Shown here piece after piece: positions 34,260-41,595 of a stretch of DNA of 64,000 nt. The translations under genes and the position numbers were made by a program. Within the stretch, counting starts at the first letter, position 1; each line of letters starts with the position of its first letter. The DNA is taken from contig NC_063020.1 in NCBI RefSeq assembly GCF_020509005.1, forward strand, positions 1,922,001 to 1,986,000. The letters are read 5' to 3'. This stretch comes from Fulvia fulva. Lineage: Eukaryota > Ascomycota > Dothideomycetes > Mycosphaerellales > Mycosphaerellaceae. The notes beneath the pieces were generated by a model. That model was not told the DNA's origin and did not search any database. It saw only the letters and a program-made list of their open reading frames with translations.

Positions 34260-36732
34260 CACGCTACCGATAGAGGTGTTAACCTCGATAACTAAGACAC
34301 TCTATTCTACTTTAGTAAGTAGGCTAATATCCCCTTCTCGAACGCCGCTACCTTTAGTACCTAGGTAAACGCTAACCCCGACACCGCCTACGCTCTTATT
34401 AACCGTACCGTCTCCTCTTTCTACGAGACCGCCTAGTAGGTCGAGCAAGTAAACAACTAAGTAATATACCTTTAAGGTATTATAAATACCTTCTAGAACC
34501 TCGTACCGTACGCCGACGATAACCGCCGCTAGTACTTCTCTAAGAAGGTTAACGACCTAGACGAGTTCGACGGTAATAAGAGTAAGTTCGAGGCATTTAA
34601 GACATAGCTTACTATTAAGCTATTAGTCAATACCGACTACTTTCCGTAAGAGAAGGATAAGGTTACGTACGTCTTCTCCCTCCTTCGGGGAGACGCCGCG
34701 GCTTAGGTATAATACTATATCGATAACGCTACGTAGACTATCGGCTACCTAGACGTCCTCACCTTAATATAGGACCTCCGTGCTGCCTTTAGTGATCTAG
34801 ACCGTAGAGCTACCGCCTAGAACGCTATCTATAACCTCCTCTAGAAGAACAAGAGCTTCGCCGAGTACCTCGCGGCCTTTAACCGCGACATCGGGTTTAC
34901 CGGCTATAACGAAGAGACTAAGAAGAGTACTCTCCGCCGTAGCTTATTAGTAGAGCTTCTTCGAGCCCTCGAGGATAAGGACGTCGGTACTATAAGCTTC
35001 CGTAAGCTCGTCGAGACCTACTAGCGCCTCGACTCTAATATAAAACATACCGCCTCTCTCCTCGCTTCCCGTTCTTAAGGTCGTTAGCCTCGTAGTCCCG
35101 GAAGCTACTTTACTACTCTACTAGGCGCCGCCGCTCCTACGGCTCTCCCTCCCGTCTCTATAGGTAATGCTATAGATCTTAGCGCTAGTACCGCCGTCCC
35201 TCGAGTCTAGGGCCTTATTAACGGTAAGCTTACTCCCGAAGAGAAGCTTCGCCGTCGCTAGGCCGGACTCTATACCTACTACGGCGGTCTAGGCTATATC
35301 GTAGTTAACTATCCGTAGCTCGCTACCCGTAACGCCCGTAACCTAGTTCGCGGCGCTATCGGCGCTATCGAGCCTACTTCTACTACTCCCGCTAAGTAGG
35401 AAAAAGCCTAGGTCTTCCTTATCGACGCGATAAAGACTAAGAATAACGTTTACCGAAAGTAAAGAGAGGAAAGAAGTTAAGGATCAATATAGTATAGCTA
35501 GACCTATACGACGAGACGGGTAAGGACTACGCTTATAAACCGTTCGTTACGAATATAAATATCGGCTTAAAGAAACTCTCTTCTTCCAATCTCACTCTTA
35601 TAGATACTAGCGTACTAGGCGAGTCTTTTATAGACTATAAACTCGCGACCTCTCTTAACCTCGAACCCTAGGAACTAAAGTACCCTCGTACCCTTAAACT
35701 ATTTAACGGTACGGAGACTACTACTAGTAAGATTACTTATATTATATATACGTTAATCACTCTCGGAAGCAAGCGTATATCGATTACTAGCTTCCTTACG
35801 TCCCTACCGTATTAGAAGTTTATCCTTAGCCTCCCCTAGTTTAGACGATACTAACCTATTATCGACTAGACTTCCCTTACTATTAGCTTCCCTCTAGAAG
35901 CTCCTCCGGTACCTCCGCCTTCTCCGCCGCCTTAGCGCGGTCCTAAGTATACTAGGATCTTCTAGGTGAACGCCGCTACCTTTACTACTACTACTAAGTA
36001 GCCTAAAGCTTAAGTCTTCGCCGCCTCTCTCCGCGATATCGACATCGCCCTCGAGAAGCTCGATAAGAAGCGTATACCTACCGACCCTACTACGAAGGTC
36101 CCTCCTTAGGTATACTATATCCTCTACGTATTCGATACTAAAGCCGTAGACGAGCTACCTCCTTATCGCCCTTACGACTATAAGATTGAGCTAGAAGAAG
36201 GTATAGAGACACCGTTCGGACCGTTATATTCTATGTCCCGAGAAGAGCTTATCGTCCTTAAGAGATTCCTCGAAGAGAACCTAAAGAAGGGGTTTATTCG
36301 AGCGAGCCGTTCTAGCGCTAGTAGTCCCGTTATATTCGTTAAGAAGCCCGGCGGTAGCCTACGCTTCTACGTAGACTACCGAGGCTTAAACGCTATTATA
36401 AAGAAGAACCGCTACCTAATACCGTTGATTTAGGAGACGCTCGAGCGCCTCTCTAAGGCCAAGTACTTTACTAAGCTCGATGTTATCGCTACGTTTAAGA
36501 AGTTACGAATAGTAGAAGGACACGAGTATCTTATAGCCTTCCGTACTTACTACGGGCTATTCGAGTCGCTCGTTATACCCTTCGGCGTTTATAACGGGCC
36601 TAGTACCTTCTAGAACTTTATTAACGACATTCTTTAGGAGTTTCTCGATCAGTTCTATACTACCTATATCGACGACATCCTAGTCTATAGCGAGACTAAG
36701 GAGGAGCACCGCGAGTACGTCTATAAGGTCCT
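34260..36732 (+). pseudogene. Gypsy-B gag, protease and 5' half of reverse transcriptase
   Basis: Gag runs from about 34260 to 35460. Its zinc knuckle at 35271-35312 should be C-x2-C-x4-H-x4-C, but all four ligand codons read Tyr. Protease follows (about 35540-35840, LTLIDTSVLG-like). RT begins near 36180; one stretch, 36233-36433, is still open with VDYRGLNAI, and YIDDILVYS is at 36665-36691. The gene is cut at 36733 by the small LTR element just after this catalytic motif and resumes at 39146. Confidence 0.8.
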
Positions 36733-37059
36733 TGTTAGGAACCGCTGTACGTTATCCCAACCGGGCTTAGATCTTTGTAATGATGTCTCTGACTCGTTGA
36801 GAAGGTAGTGGTCCCAAACAGTATATGGTGTATACTTAAAATGAGTTGAGCACGAGGCTCCTATCTACTTGCAAAGGAGCGTCGTCTATATAGTACTATG
36901 TCTTGGCGCGGTCACCTCGCTCACGAGTGACCTAAGTGACCCTGAGTCACCTCGTTCACGAGTGACCCAAGTGACTCCAATACACTGGCTGCCTAGTGAT
37001 CTTCCCTCGTTCTTCGCTTGTCTGACAAATGAGCTTCTCCCACCTTTCAGACCGTAACA
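36733..37059 (-). repeat. 3' LTR of the ambisense element (327 bp)
   Basis: TGTTAGGAACC..CCGTAACA. Compared with the other LTR it lacks one 26-bp unit, has one extra G in CCGGGC, and carries two RIP-type substitutions (CTTAGATC for CTTGGATC; TTGTAATG for TTGCAATG). One TGAGTCA at 36943-36949. Confidence 0.88.
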
Positions 37060-37074
37060 CCATCCCCCTCCCCA
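37060..37074 (-). promoter_or_regulatory. Polypurine tract of the ambisense element
   Basis: On the minus strand GGGGAGGGGGATGG ends exactly where the LTR begins, as expected of the plus-strand primer. This fixes the element's orientation as minus. Confidence 0.75.
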
Positions 37075-37152
37075 GGATCGGTGTCCCAACGATCACGTGT
37101 CATGATGATATAAGCGAATGTCCCATCATTTTCATTCCTCAGCTTGTCCAAA

Positions 37153-37656
37153 ATGTCTTCCTCCTCGTCACAGAAACGCGAACTTCGTGCCTCCCGCATC
37201 GAGCGACAGAATCACCTGGCCGAGTCCCCCTGCGAGAACTGTTGTTCGAAGTTGCGTCTGTGTTTCGTCATGCCTGGCTCCGACTCGCGGTGTTCCGAGT
37301 GTGTCCGTAGAGGTCGCGCCTGTGTCCGTACGTCGTGGGCCGCCATAGATCGGACCGAAGCATCCATAAAAAGAGAAATCGAGCTGGCGGAGCAACAACA
37401 GGAATCGCTCCTGCAGCAACTGGAGCAGGTCCGGGCGATCCTCACCAGGAAGCGCCAAGTACTCGAGCAGAACCGTGCCCGTGAAGAAGAAAAACTCCGT
37501 TGCTTGGATCGTGAGCTCGCCGCCGAGGGAGACGATACTCGGGTCGTCCACCTGTCCGCATCCGAGCTGGAGAAGAGCCTCCAAAGCGTCGGTGTAGCGT
37601 CCCCTTTCTCCTGGTCTGGTTTTTGTTCTGATCCTCCTCCCGAGGCGCCTTCGTAA
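37153..37656 (+). CDS. Zn2Cys6-like coiled-coil protein, antisense ORF of the LTR element
   Basis: 167 residues from the ATG at 37153 (the longer frame opens with TTG). Residues about 25-55 hold six cysteines spaced C-x2-C-x6-C-x9-C-x2-C-x6-C, the exact pattern of the fungal Zn2Cys6 binuclear cluster, though with fewer basic residues than a classic GAL4 domain (CENCCSKLRLC, then CSECVRRGRAC). A long charged heptad-like helix follows (ASIKREIELAEQQQESLLQQ, then EQVRAILTRKRQVLEQNRAR). The tail is Ser/Pro-rich. It is convergent with gag and 106 bases from it. Proteins of this look recur among fungal genome hypotheticals and, to my recollection, have no established function. Confidence 0.75.
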   Translation: MSSSSSQKRELRASRIERQNHLAESPCENCCSKLRLCFVMPGSDSRCSECVRRGRACVRTSWAAIDRTEASIKREIELAEQQQESLLQQLEQVRAILTRKRQVLEQNRAREEEKLRCLDRELAAEGDDTRVVHLSASELEKSLQSVGVASPFSWSGFCSDPPPEAPS

Positions 37657-37762
37657 GTCGTGTTCCAGTAGTCGTTTATCCGTGTCGTTGTGTTGACTTC
37701 TAGTCCTTAGGTCATCAAATCAAGAAGCCGCTGTTTGATGCCTTGTCGTCAGGTCGTTTCTG

Positions 37763-38755
37763 CTAAGCAGATTTCGAGAAGAAGTTCTCGCATTCCTGGT
37801 ATGTCTTCTCTTCGCGAATCATTGCGTTGAACTCGCGGCTAACCATATTCTTCTTCTTGCAGTTTTTTGCAAAGTGGCCTTGCTCGCCACATACGTAGCA
37901 GGTGGAACCTTTGCTCTTCAGCCCCCTTCCTGTCCTACGATCCGTTACGTCCAATTCCATTGGGTCTCCGTAACTAGGGTCCTGACTTCTGGCCTTGAAG
38001 CCCCCTCTTCCGCTCGCGGCGGGTCTCTGGTATCCAGGCTGTACGTGTCGGTCGTACCTCAAATCCTGGAGCCTTTCGTCGATCTCCTTTGCTGCCTTGA
38101 TCATCGCCCCTAGCGTCACAACGCTGGCGTTTCGGGATAGTTCGGCTTTAACGTTGTCCTTCAGCCCGAGGTAGAACTGCGATCGCAATGCTGCGTCGTT
38201 CCATTCTAGGTCGGCGGCATATCCTTGGAATTCTGAGGCGTACAGCGCTACAGAAGTGGTCTGTCGAAGTTGTCGGATATGTCGGTCGGCGTATACCTCC
38301 TCATTCGGTATCCCGTATAGATCATCGAGTTTCGTCTCAAACTCGTCGTAGTCGTGGAAAATTTTTCGAGTTTCCGTCTTCGGTGTCCCCCCCTCACCCT
38401 GGTTGTGGAGCCAGTCCTTGAGGTATGGTCGGAATCCTCTAGCTGCTTTTCCTCGTAGGAAGGATGCGGCGTACAAGACCTTGCTGGCCTCGCCTTGAAA
38501 CTGGTGTGCGTTGAAGTGAAGGTACAACTGAACCTGCAGTTGAAAAGCCTCCAGTTTGTCCTTGGTCCCGTCGAACGTCTCCGGCGTAGACACCTTAGGT
38601 GCACGGTGGTGGTCCTGTGAGTTCAGCATACTCATAGGAGCGTTGTTGTTCTTGCTGCTTCCTGTAATCGACATTTCGCTCATTCGTTCCGTAATGCCAG
38701 TTGACTGTGGCGTTCCTTGTCTCGACGGACTCCGGGTAGCGTCTCTCCCAGACAT
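37763..38755 (-). CDS. Gag of the non-autonomous LTR element
   Basis: 330 residues from the ATG at 38755 (two upstream codons open with TTG). The capsid-like core (about 55-240) includes TPETFDGTKDKLEAFQLQVQ and LRQTTSVALYASEFQGYAAD, typical of Ty3/Gypsy Gag. A CCHC zinc knuckle, CYVCGEQGHFAKNC, lies near residues 285-300 with all ligands intact. Gag forms the particle that packages element RNA. The frame ends without a frameshift into pol; there is no pol. The start lies 33 bases from the LTR, leaving little room for a primer site. Confidence 0.85.
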   Translation of the reverse strand: MSGRDATRSPSRQGTPQSTGITERMSEMSITGSSKNNNAPMSMLNSQDHHRAPKVSTPETFDGTKDKLEAFQLQVQLYLHFNAHQFQGEASKVLYAASFLRGKAARGFRPYLKDWLHNQGEGGTPKTETRKIFHDYDEFETKLDDLYGIPNEEVYADRHIRQLRQTTSVALYASEFQGYAADLEWNDAALRSQFYLGLKDNVKAELSRNASVVTLGAMIKAAKEIDERLQDLRYDRHVQPGYQRPAASGRGGFKARSQDPSYGDPMELDVTDRRTGRGLKSKGSTCYVCGEQGHFAKNCKKKNMVSREFNAMIREEKTYQECENFFSKSA

Positions 38756-38788
38756 ATGCAAAGGGCCCTGGTGGTGGTGCTCAAAGTT

Positions 38789-39140
38789 GTTAGGAACCGC
38801 TGTACGTTATCCCAACCGGGCTTGGATCTTTGCAATGATGTCTCTGACTCGTTGAGAAGGTAGTGGTCCCAAACAGTATATGGTGTATACTTAAAATGAG
38901 TTGAGCACGAGGCTCCTATCTACTTGCAAAGGAGCGTCGTCTATATAGTACTATGTCTTGGCGCGGTCACCTCGCTCACGAGTGACCTAAGTGACCCTGA
39001 GTCACCTCGTTCACGAGTGACCCTGAGTCACCTCGTTCACGAGTGACCCAAGTGACTCCAATACACTGGCTGCCTAGTGATCTTCCCTCGTTCTTCGCTT
39101 GTCTGACAAATGAGCTTCTCCCACCTTTCAGACCGTAACA
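38789..39140 (-). repeat. 5' LTR of the ambisense element (352 bp)
   Basis: By orientation this is the promoter LTR for gag. A 26-bp tandem unit containing TGAGTCA occurs twice in phase (TGAGTCA at 38998-39004 and 39024-39030), next to related CGAGTGACC words. TGA(C/G)TCA is the site of AP-1/Gcn4-type bZIP factors, which suggests but does not prove stress or starvation control. Confidence 0.85.
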
Positions 39141-41595
39141 GTCCTTTAGAAGCTCGTAGACGCCGGCTTATAGCTCGATATCGATAAGTACGAGTTTAAG
39201 AAGACCGAAGTCAAGTTCCTTAGTTTAATTATTACCGTAGACGGCATTAAGATAGACTAAGAGAAGGTCAACGCTATCGTCGAATAGGATACTCCTCTAA
39301 CGTTAAGGAGGTCTAGGGTTTCCTAGGCTTTACTAACTTCTACCGCCGCTTTATCTACGTATTCTCGAGCGTAGTACGCCCTTTAACGAAGCTTACGCGT
39401 AAGGGTAAGAAGTTTGCCTAGACCGACGAATACTAGGAGGCTTTTGACTTACTTAAAGCGAAGTTCATTAAGAACCCGCTCCTATAGCACTTCGATTTCG
39501 AACTAGAGACCCGTATAGAGACTAACGTATCCGACGGCGTAGTAGGCGGTGTCCTACTATAATGCCGCTCGCCTAAATCTCCCTAGTTACCTATCGCCTT
39601 CCTCTCTAAGAAGATGACCGCTACGGAGTATAACTACGAGATCTACGACAAGGAGCTTCTCGCTATCGTCAAAGCTTTTAAAGAGTAGCGCCCCGAGCTC
39701 GAAGGCTCTACTATACCCGTCTAAGTAAGCTCCGACTATAAGAGCCTCGTCTACTTTATAAAGAGTAAGCTACTTAATTGTCGCTAGGCCCGCTAGAGCG
39801 ATTTTCTCTCCCGGTTTAACTTTATAATCTCGTATACGCCCGGTAAGGCCAACTCGATAGCCGACGCCCTTACCCGCCGCCCTAGTAACTCTCTAGTTAA
39901 TCGAAGAGGGGGCTAGCAAATCGTAGAGCAACAAGTTATTAAAGAGTATAACCTCTCTTTCGAGCTTCGAGAGTACCTATCGAACGGCTAGCCTACGCTC
40001 GCTACTTCCTTTACTACTCTCGTACTCGCTCCTACCTACCTTAACGAGAGTGGCAATAAATCCGAGCCTAAAGAATACGCCTCGGACGCTAAGGACTTGA
40101 ACGATAATAAAGAGGGCTTAGTAACGACCGACGGCTTATCCGAATTAGGCTTTAAGGGGTTTAATAATAAGGAGTAACCTAAAGGCATTATAGTACGAGT
40201 ACGAATAGTATACGATACCGACCTAGTCGCCTAAGAGTTAGTTTAGGCCCTTAAATCTAGCGCGAGGATATTCCCGGGCTTCTCGCTATCTAAGTACGAG
40301 CTCTAGGAAGGTGTCGTCTACTTCCGTAAGAAGCTTTACGTACCGTAGCCCGAAGGCTCTAATATCCGAGCTAAGATTCTTTTAATCGTCTACGACTCCG
40401 CCTCTAGGGGTCACCTAGGCGTAGCTAAGACCTATAAGCTCCTCGCTAGGTATTACTAGTAGCCGTATTCCTAGAAGGACGTCCGCCGCTACGTACTAAA
40501 CTACGCTACTTACTAAAGAGCTAAAGCTAACCGCTACCGCCCCTACGGTCTCTTATACCCTCTCCCGGCTCCTAATTGTCCGTAGAAGCACATTACTATA
40601 GACTTTATTACCGATCTTCCTTACGGTAAGACCTTTAGCGGCGTAAAGGCAAAGGCCCTTCTAGTAATCGTAGACCGTTACTCTAAGGACCGGTATATAA
40701 TCCCGTACTAGAGTATAACCGTAAAGGAGACTACTCGCTTATTCTACGAATTCGTCTAGCGCTTTTAAGGCCTCCCGGATAGCATCACCTCTAATAGAGG
40801 CTCCTAGTTCATCTCGTACTTCTAGAAGCGTCTATATACTATCCTAGGTATTAAGTATAACCTCTCGACTAGTTTTTAGCTATAGACCGACGGCCAGACC
40901 GAAATTACGAACACTATCCTCGAGTAGGTCCTTCGTTACTTCGTCGACTACTACTAGAAGGATTGGCCTTAGTATATCCCTACGGTAGAGTTCGCTACTC
41001 GTAACTAGGACTCGGAGACTACTAGCTACTCTCCCTTCTATACTACGAGAGGTTACTACCCTCGTATAGGTATAGAACTAGAAGAGCCTCTCCCGCCTAC
41101 CGAAGACGTAAACGAGTAAGTAGTAGACGAGTTCGCTACTATACTCTTATAGATCTATAAAGAAGTCTACGACGAGATAGTATACGTATAAGCAATCTAC
41201 GAGGATTAAGCTAATCGTCGTCGCTAGCTAGCTCCCGACTACTAAGTAGGCGATATAGTCTACCTTAACTCTAAGAACATTAAGACGGACCGCCCCTCTA
41301 AGAAGCTAAGCTAGAAGAACCTAGGTCCTTTTAAGATTACCGAGCGTATTAGTTTATACGCCTACCGTCTAGCTCTTCCTACGAACATAAAGATCTACGA
41401 CGTCTTCTATCCCGTACGCCTTCGGCCGTCGGCTAAGGACCTATTCCCGAACTAAAACTAAGACATACTAGGTCCTCCCGATAAAGTAGAAGTCGACGAG
41501 CCTATTAACCTACCTTCTAACGACTATACCGTCCGTAAGATCCGGGGAATCCGCGTAGAGCCTAACGAAGTTAAAGGGCTACCGCCGATCAAGTA
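39141..41595 (+). pseudogene. Gypsy-B RT end, RNase H, integrase
   Basis: Resumes after TSD GTCCT (39141-39145). RT thumb and RNase H run to about 39860 (the [24 protein letters not shown] stretch near 39600-39660), then the integrase zinc-binding region, core with IDFITDLPYGKTFSG-like and QTDGQTEITN-like motifs (40600-40920), and the start of a chromodomain that is cut at 41595 by the Copia insertion. Many in-frame TAG codons. Confidence 0.8.

Follow-up and report, generated by a model that had tools for sequence, protein, structure and literature searches.

A young LTR element in Fulvia fulva carries, convergent to its gag, an intact gene for a zinc-cluster protein, and comparison with related families of the same genome indicates that this antisense ORF is exchanged between families together with the adjoining U3, a point that goes beyond the first-pass annotation of this DNA. 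We propose, with confidence just on the favourable side of even, that the antisense ORF is the trans half and the U3 repeats the cis half of an element-encoded, self-activating regulatory cassette.

A young pol-less element with a convergent ORF

Within the window (the whole 64,000-nucleotide stretch analysed), we delimited a young 2.4-kb LTR element of family A with a 5-bp target-site duplication, an intact gag and no pol, whose parts are as follows (coordinates, strand, feature).

36733..39140, minus: non-autonomous LTR element, family A, entire
36728..36732, no strand: target-site duplication GTCCT, left copy
39141..39145, no strand: target-site duplication GTCCT, right copy
38788..39140, minus: 5' LTR, 353 bp, three repeat units
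38966..39047, minus: U3 sites in the 5' LTR (38966-38986, 39001-39021, 39027-39047)
38941..38948, minus: TATA-like box; box to LTR end 97-99% common to families A, B and B'
38901..38908, minus: GTGCTCAA within the LTR, complement of the putative primer-binding site, candidate Tf1-like self-primer
38777..38784, minus: TTGAGCAC, putative self-primer binding site, directly 3' of the 5' LTR
37763..38755, minus: gag, 330 aa, intact (frame 38755 to 37763, stop-free)
37153..37656, plus: antisense zinc-cluster/coiled-coil ORF, 167 aa, intact
37231..37323, plus: six-cysteine zinc cluster, residues 27-57
37336..37536, plus: long helix predicted by AlphaFold2, presumed coiled coil, residues 62-128
37564..37653, plus: C-terminal tail with SPxxW motif, acidic/hydrophobic in homologues
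37076..37094, minus: hairpin GATCG..GGGAC..CGATC preceding the polypurine tract, with counterpart hairpins in other families
37060..37076, minus: polypurine tract adjoining the 3' LTR
36733..37059, minus: 3' LTR, 327 bp, two repeat units
36911..36966, minus: U3 sites GTCACTCGTGARCGAGGTGAC in the 3' LTR (36911-36931, 36946-36966; C9:1958911-1958931, 1958946-1958966)

The first-pass annotation had described a complete, nearly unmutated element, and this description is borne out by the GTCCT duplication, the polypurine tract, the stop-free gag and two LTRs that lie 2 substitutions and one 26-bp repeat unit apart; of the LTR lengths it gave, 327 bp stands and 352 bp is corrected to a measured 353 bp. 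It had also reported the lack of pol, and our ORF reading of the family A element likewise found no pol-sized ORF between 36733 and 39140. The 167-residue convergent ORF was recovered with the C-x2-C-x6-C-x9-C-x2-C-x6-C cysteine spacing initially noted, where a long coiled coil had been proposed AlphaFold2 places a 67-residue helix, C-terminal to the zinc cluster, and the repeated, regulatory-looking LTR sites on which the protein had been suggested to act, and may indeed act, were found as two units in the 3' LTR and three in the 5' LTR. The family A gag matches Pfam Retrotrans_gag (7.5e-11) and zf-CCHC (6.3e-6), and the element is a pol-less, non-autonomous relative of the Ty3/gypsy chromoviruses (Metaviridae). 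Complementarity between GTGCTCAA and TTGAGCAC suggests that it may be primed by a Tf1-like self-primer. RNAalifold predicted no structure on 8 hairpin sequences, whose stems are offset in that alignment.

Retention of the antisense ORF across the lineage

Searching the genome (67.17 Mb, 14 contigs), we identified seven young families (A, B, B', C, D, D2 and E) of one Ty3 chromovirus lineage, each with a convergent ORF next to its 3' LTR. Four of the seven have pol, CfT-I among them, and the antisense gene lies between pol and the 3' LTR in C, D, E and D2 (in the last, the 3' 3 kb were examined). Family C matches RVT_1 (5.7e-40), RT_RNaseH (2.7e-32), Integrase_H2C2 (2.7e-18) and Chromo (3.7e-16); from the zinc-knuckle gag and from the RT, RNase H, integrase and chromodomain of the pol-bearing relatives, we assign the lineage to the Ty3/gypsy chromoviruses. 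The family D pol is identical at 974 of 983 positions (99%) to CfT-I record P0122, a match by which we identify family D as CfT-I (Cladosporium fulvum T-1 virus); the window element belongs to another family, without pol. The antisense ORF had been presented as an unusual design of a non-autonomous element, and while the ORF itself holds up, its restriction to such elements does not, as pol-bearing families, CfT-I included, carry it too. Conservation in seven families likewise led us to reject a chance or degenerate ORF.

The window ORF occurs at 20 places in the genome at 97-100% identity, 17 of them stop-free, and the families have reached 5 to 23 copies with nearly all cassettes intact. The first-pass annotation had suggested checking whether intact copies always keep both ORFs. 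Among 81 elements in which the gag match has no stop, 80 also have a stop-free convergent ORF, where stops were judged within matched stretches and the underlying searches score best candidates only, and the sole miss is 3'-truncated. Loss of the ORF was considered and rejected for the B' copy at C9:1164202, which matches B' at 100% over 441 bp before the match ends, as in a truncated copy. In an outgroup Ty3 family (L077, with a 430-aa gag frame), inspection of the listed ORFs of at least 90 aa revealed no zinc-cluster ORF. The pol frame of that family extends into the LTR. Among viral contigs, 14 stretches match a pattern, none of which was confirmed as a relative.

RIP is not expected to yield transversions, and those that separate the ORFs of moderately diverged relatives fall mostly at third codon positions (positions 1/2/3: 3/2/22 for C vs. 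L065, 2/3/24 for C vs. L068 and 8/2/24 for L078 vs. L082), a pattern from which we conclude that the ORF is under purifying selection. The 17 A copies vary at 5 ORF sites, 3 silent and 2 non-silent, so that dN/dS among them is powerless. These substitution patterns also bear on a reading in which the antisense transcript matters and the protein does not, acting through dsRNA or transcriptional interference with gag. The convergence of gag and the antisense ORF would suit such an arrangement, and the available part of one source considers control by antisense RNA in other elements (PMC7264820), but conservation acts at the level of the protein, in the six cysteines, the third-position substitutions and the tail motif of homologues, and we regard this reading as highly improbable.

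The ORF and U3 form one exchanged block

Comparing families along their length, we found that families near-identical in gag and in the segment from TATA to U5 cease to align across the antisense ORF and the adjoining U3. Between C and D, identity per 100 bp is 98-100% in gag and 64-100% in pol, drops to 10-53% across ORF and U3, and then returns to 98%; the A/B, B/B' and D/D2 comparisons exhibit the same sharp boundaries. Identity from TATA to the LTR end is 97-99% within A/B/B' and 92-95% within C/D/D2. The A/B backbone carries four cassettes (A, B, B' and L090) and the C/D backbone six (C, D, D2, B type, L091 and L067).

ORFs of one type retain one U3 type on differing backbones, which identifies the antisense ORF as half of what appears to be a swappable cassette. 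For the association test, 28 elements were considered for the U3 set, one (L089) was left out as no LTR was found, and 16 of the 27 kept were used as representatives after near-identical copies had been collapsed by hand beforehand. Across 80 cross-backbone pairs of these representatives, ORF similarity and U3 similarity are correlated (Pearson 0.80, a value that none of 20000 within-backbone permutations reached; Spearman 0.39, reached in 4 of 4000 permutations). Once the 10 of these 80 pairs that fall inside the B or C type are removed, the correlation drops from 0.80 to 0.17, and one representative per ORF type gives 0.18 over 29 pairs; the association is thus weak outside pairs of one ORF type. 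The top three cross-backbone U3 partners of A are the three C-type representatives, all of which are within its four best ORF partners.

The U3 repeats are family-specific across the young families. The A site (GTCACTCGTGARCGAGGTGAC) occurs 114 times in the genome, and among the 100 places listed, 92 lie inside LTR matches and 8 in three further arrays with identical spacing; unit number varies among 28 A LTRs, with two units in 9, three in 18 and four in 1. All 6 C-type elements, which lie on two backbones, have a C-type U3 motif that is absent from the 21 others, and CTRATYAG occurs in 12 of 13 B-type elements, spread over three backbones, and in 1 of the 14 others; these counts serve as illustration and not as a test since both motifs were picked by eye from the very U3s counted. 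A and C-type U3s have a site array in common (z 5.0-11.7) at 38-39% ORF identity and 50% likeness from TATA to LTR end, and B and E have U3 repeats in common without closely related ORFs.

These data can also be read as linkage only, with template switching swapping 3' ends mechanically and the protein targeting host genes, integration or RNA. The adjacency of ORF and U3, the weak correlation beyond same-type pairs and the repeats common to B and E all fit such linkage, and template switching is discussed as an origin of crapaud LTR recombinants in the accessible part of that report (PMC10787394). Pointing the other way, the A and C-type array is common despite the low ORF and LTR identity, the A site is concentrated in LTR matches with its remaining listed places in similarly spaced arrays, and the C-type repeat zones are slower to change than the coding sequence at its third positions: between C and L065 they show no transversion at 61 sites, as against 22 at 119 third codon positions (Fisher 6e-5). 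We consider linkage without regulation unlikely, and it is the association of U3 type with ORF type that leads us to suggest DNA binding of the antisense protein to U3.

Anatomy of the antisense protein

The six-cysteine binuclear cluster pattern is present in 119 of 121 retrieved proteins, compared with a mean of 0.0 in 20 shuffles, a count that reflects conservation and gives no independent proof, since 119 of the 121 were retrieved with a profile containing these cysteines. Among 235 zinc-protein homologues, 120 were listed, and alignment A2 comprises 70 sequences from the 121 retrieved proteins and the families of this genome. Other Dothideomycetes (Cercospora, Hortaea and Elsinoe) have homologues as well. 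Fold comparison (VIA-align, 15 chains) returned Zn2Cys6 DNA-binding domains in 8 of 9 rows. Against Pfam PF00172, the gathering score of 21 was not reached (family C scored 11.3 bits; A, B and D had no listed match) and 0 of the 70 aligned members matched at E 0.01; NCBIfam offered no useful family for the protein.

In 98 of 122 proteins the tail is acidic, hydrophobic and nearly K/R-free (D+E 14.6%, K+R 0.5%, WFYLM 23.8%), and that of the window ORF is weakly so (4 D/E, 1 K/R and 5 WFYLM in 30 residues). Such a composition resembles acidic activation domains rather than repression domains, and fungal activators are built in this way, with a zinc cluster, a long helix and an acidic tail.

The tails therefore incline us towards a transactivator that is specific to its family and acts on its own LTRs, in preference to two other roles for a DNA-binding protein. 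As a repressor for copy-number control, the protein would shut the LTR by binding its own family's U3 repeats, like a lambdoid phage repressor at its operators, and cassette replacement would let an element evade the families already resident. The layout of the cassettes and the presence of several per backbone (four on A/B, six on C/D) are the trace expected of such heteroimmunity, and the dose of an antisense regulator, which would rise with copy number, might suit feedback control; set against this, the K/R-poor tails resemble activation domains and the families have multiplied with their cassettes nearly all intact, making repression unlikely in our view. As an anti-silencing factor, the protein would instead bind family-specific tandem motifs and lift chromatin silencing or DNA methylation. 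We think this, too, unlikely given the activator anatomy, even though short motifs in family-specific arrays of variable number differ between families alongside the protein, and a similar evolutionary signature is described for VANC in the available part of its source (PMC5735166).

A proposed family-specific regulatory loop

In the self-activating cassette that we favour, an antisense transcript would begin in or near the 3' LTR and yield a Gal4-type zinc-cluster protein, which the long helix would dimerise and which, as a dimer, would bind the U3 repeats of its own family. Bound protein would activate the LTR promoter, giving genomic RNA from the 5' LTR, and would probably also drive its own mRNA from the 3' LTR, producing a self-sustaining, family-specific loop. 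Template switching in reverse transcription would carry the contiguous ORF and U3 cassette between backbones, so that a backbone could change its regulatory identity, and non-autonomous gag elements, the window element included, also retain a cassette. Joint exchange of ORF and control sites may thereby place each family on a private switch. In its broadest form, which we put at even chances, this would be an LTR clade with a Gal4-type switch of antisense activator and matched U3 operators, in which the cassette passes from one gag-pol backbone to another, and from elements with pol to non-autonomous ones or back, and families with virtually identical gag become regulatorily isolated.

If true, this reading would explain U3-only diversification in fungal LTR families and offers a route by which retrotransposon families gain regulatory independence from one another. 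The several cassettes and roughly 80 intact copies within one genome make the function of such antisense genes directly testable in a small protein-by-U3 matrix, and the cassettes may yield compact, orthogonal transcription factor/operator pairs.

Comparison with known systems

Elements of Botrytis and of plants were already known to have antisense genes beside the 3' LTR, lacking an established function, and crapaud has been reported to diversify around U3, with no cause given; what is new is that the two appear here as parts of a single unit that can be exchanged, in the lineage to which CfT-I belongs. HBZ of HTLV-1, a retroviral bZIP protein resembling a transcription factor, is also encoded in antisense and read from the side of the 3' LTR, but we know of no coevolving U3 cassette for it. 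In the accessible text on the plant Retand elements, HBZ is mentioned alongside their antisense ORFs, which resemble ours in lying between pol and the 3' LTR, in predicted DNA binding and in nearby tandem repeats, but differ in having a TRP28 domain in place of the zinc cluster and in that cassette exchange is not described there (PMC11963269).

A positional match is brtn, described in the available portions of three papers as an additional antisense gene between pol and the 3' LTR of Boty-like Ty3/gypsy elements of Botrytis cinerea and Sclerotinia, likewise fungal elements with a chromodomain and 5-bp duplications (PMC7264820, PMC8365987, PMC4227169). Compared by description, brtn and the zinc-cluster antisense ORF are probably the same kind of gene, but those portions describe no U3 link or cassette exchange. 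In crapaud (Podospora), similarly, U3 sets the subfamilies apart and R and U5 are conserved; in contrast, the relationships of their internal regions do not match the LTR subfamilies, as far as the accessible part reports, and antisense is never mentioned (PMC10787394).

The VANDAL elements of Arabidopsis encode VANC, which, according to the part of the source available, is an element-encoded DNA-binding protein that evolves with family-specific tandem motifs in non-coding DNA and acts in anti-silencing (PMC5735166). The same feature is seen here, with tandem motifs that differ between families along with the protein and an association that lies mainly within ORF types, but VANDALs are DNA transposons and VANC is an unrelated protein, whereas ours are LTR elements with a zinc cluster and an antisense gene adjoining the LTR promoter. 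In the immunity region of lambdoid phages, regulator and operators are swapped jointly, as a single cassette, while the backbone stays the same; the regulator there is a phage repressor, whereas activation is the role we favour here. If the private-switch reading is true, heteroimmune phages would have their retrotransposon counterpart in this lineage.

Structure and insertion site of the family A element

The non-autonomous LTR element on the minus strand at 36733-39140, a member of family A, has the following features.

38788-39140, minus strand: 5' LTR, 353 bp (LTR comparison)
36733-37059, minus strand: 3' LTR, 327 bp (LTR comparison)
37153-37656, plus strand: convergent zinc ORF (six-cysteine zinc cluster with a presumed coiled coil), 167 aa, intact (ORF reading)
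37076-37094, minus strand: hairpin with a GGGAC-type loop right before the polypurine tract (seen by eye)

The two LTRs differ by 2 substitutions and one 26-bp repeat unit, the target duplication GTCCT flanks the element on either side, and a polypurine tract precedes the 3' LTR. The first-pass annotation had described an intact gag and an intact convergent 167-aa ORF without pol, and we confirmed this arrangement: both frames are stop-free, the 330-aa gag shows capsid-like and zinc-knuckle matches, and pol is absent from 36733-39140. Shortly after the 5' LTR, TTGAGCAC is complementary to GTGCTCAA inside the LTR, a pairing that suggests self-priming of the kind used by Tf1 and from which we place the start of R near GTGCTCAA. 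No such self-primer match was obtained for family E, whose LTR end was cut too far downstream. The 5' and 3' LTRs of the E copy (L076), as cut, have the same sequence up to their last bases apart from position seven (TGTTACGG vs. TGTTACTG).

The family A element is inserted in an older Ty3 element, within its reverse transcriptase region (36200-36732 and 39146-39700). The older element carries many RIP-like TAG/TAA stops (RIP, repeat-induced point mutation) and retains a readable RT fragment at 36233-36433. The hairpin before the polypurine tract was found by eye in all seven young families (counterparts at L070:279-326, L073:370-417, L069:635-682, L072:6637-6684, L074:2088-2135 and L076:1739-1786), with stems that differ yet remain self-complementary (AGCTTC/GAAGCT, AGTTCC/GGAACT, AGCTC/GAGCT, AGCTCA/TGAGCT; GATCG/CGATC in A). 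Such a hairpin may work in cis at the RNA level or in plus-strand priming; with 8 sequences as input, RNAalifold predicted no structure for it.

Zinc-cluster ORFs across seven young families

Genome searches placed the family A zinc ORF at 20 sites and its gag at 19, all at 97-100% identity; 17 of each are stop-free. Three A copies have a broken zinc ORF: two of them, broken in gag as well, lie in tandem on contig C3 with a spacing of 2055 bp, as expected from RIP, and the third (C1:7730629) matches only in part and has no gag match. Six further young families came from searches that used gag and the zinc proteins of E and B as queries: the non-autonomous B and B', whose gag is 77-78% identical to that of A, and the pol-bearing C, D, D2 and E, at 36-42%. 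The complete pol was read in D and E, a pol split into several ORFs in the C copy, and the last 500 codons alone in D2; family C has RT, RNase H, integrase and chromodomain, and D pol is 974/983 identical (99%) to the record Cladosporium fulvum T-1 virus, i.e., CfT-I.

In each of the six, a convergent zinc-cluster ORF adjoins the 3' LTR (reads and alignment). As to whether intact copies keep both ORFs, a question raised at first pass, a stop-free convergent zinc ORF lies downstream in 80 of the 81 elements with a stop-free gag match (A 17, B 23, B' 10, C 6, D 7, D2 13, E 5; all lower bounds, only the best candidates having been scored), the sole miss being a truncated copy. RIP is reported to affect ~39-41% of the Cladosporium fulvum genome (PMC10823647), in keeping with the abundance of old copies that carry TAG and TAA stops.

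We also observed regularly spaced copies. Four B copies stand in tandem at G000:C1:11152751-11159821 (2161-bp spacing) with all frames stop-free, yet RIP would be expected to favour tandem repeats. Three B copies exactly 29,780 bp apart (G000:C11:1744864, 1774644, 1804424) suggest a triplicated ~29.8 kb segment or an assembly effect, and four RIP-hit gag remnants recur every 7096 bp at G000:C9:347609-369760.

The zinc ORF and U3 diverge as one block

Sliding-window comparison of family pairs located the divergence between families of one backbone across the zinc ORF and U3, the repeat-carrying part of the LTR, which thus form one block.

Sliding-window identity between family pairs
C vs. D: gag 98-100% per 100 bp; pol 64-100%, most windows at least 84%; from a drop near the pol end, 10-53% across ORF and U3; 98% in the first window past the TATA box
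B vs. B': gag mostly 90-100%; ORF and U3 16-69%, one 50-bp window at 80%; 90-100% past TATA
A vs. B: gag 50-96%; ORF and U3 33-50%; then 98-100%
D vs. D2: pol mostly 84-98%; ORF and U3 34-70%; then 82-96%

Identity over the stretch between TATA and the end of the LTR is 97-99% within A/B/B' and 92-95% within C/D/D2. Separately, C and D (L069, L072) have nearly identical gag but parts of pol only 64-98% alike, a mosaic that suggests template switching elsewhere as well.

U3 repeats follow ORF type within the B and C types

U3 repeats differ by family: GTCACTCGTGARCGAGGTGAC in A, TCACTCGCTCACCAGTGACTTGGTGATTCGAG in C, CTGATCAG and CTGAGCGCTCAG in B, four GTGCCT followed by four AGGCAC in D, and TGATCA arrays in E, with D2 and B' less regular. 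Of the 13 U3s tested, 10 contain exact inverted repeats of 6 bp or longer; A (imperfect), B' and L067 do not. Old RIP-hit elements, with backbone assigned from the sequence right after TATA, extend the set of pairings, with C-type ORFs on the C/D (C, L068, L093, L094) and E backbones (L065, L066), and B-type ORFs on the A/B (B, L092), C/D (L081, L082, L084, L085) and E backbones (L078-L080, L083, L086-L088).

Across 80 different-backbone pairs of 16 representatives, ORF similarity correlated with RIP-tolerant U3 similarity z (Pearson 0.80, reached in 0/20000 within-backbone permutations; Spearman 0.39, 4/4000). Without pairs inside the B and C types (70 pairs) the correlation was 0.17, so the firm result is limited to same-type pairs: ORFs of one type are firmly shown to keep one U3 type on another backbone. 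The three C-type representatives are A's best cross-backbone U3 partners (z 11.7, 6.6, 5.0; next 3.9) and, alongside L067, its four best ORF partners. Against such coupling, the U3 repeats shared by E and B are not accompanied by close ORFs, the related ORFs of D, D2 and E have unrelated U3s across backbones, and the U3s of D2 and L067 fit none of the motifs listed.

Linkage, or a proposed family-specific transactivator

Since the zinc ORF adjoins U3, one swap takes both, and linkage alone would leave much of this signature. We consider it improbable as the full explanation, since the A/C motif similarity holds at 38-39% protein identity while the stretch past TATA is only 50% alike, and C vs. 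L065 shows 0 transversions at 61 repeat-zone sites against 22/119 third codon positions of the ORF (Fisher 6e-5), which together argue for more than linkage. The C vs. L065 U3 head is nearly as conserved (1/62), so what is constrained, or was exchanged more recently, is the whole U3. Among B-type elements, change is rarer in the repeat zone than in the head between L078 and L086 (8/77 vs. 14/48) and between L082 and L086 (6/77 vs. 7/45), and hardly so between L078 and L082 (6/77 vs. 5/51).

We counted 114 occurrences of the A site genome-wide and none of its reversed control. LTR matches hold 92 of the 100 places listed; the other 8 fall in three additional arrays with identical spacing (C2:4125413, C4:4939431, C5:3825637) that are presumably solo LTRs, and the site appears largely private to family A.

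Binding of the protein to the U3 of its own element is probable, and we lean, by a narrower measure of confidence, toward the full proposal that it would act as an element-encoded, family-specific transactivator. An element-encoded repressor is expected to leave the same cassette signature and is an unlikely reading, activation being favoured by the C-terminal tail of the zinc protein; an anti-silencing factor, for which that signature is equally expected, also seems improbable.

Comparison with known systems

Among the open-access papers searched, none was listed whose title or opening lines of the abstract connect fungal LTR repeats with an antisense zinc-cluster protein, which is no proof of absence as subscription papers lie mostly outside; the pairing with U3 repeats is a strong, testable new claim. 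Plant Grande, RIRE2 and Retand carry antisense genes whose function is not established in the available parts of those accounts (PMC7264820, PMC11963269). Diversification in crapaud is centred on U3, its cause left open in the sections available (PMC10787394), and in the VANC system, as described in PMC5735166, an element protein and tandem motifs coevolve.
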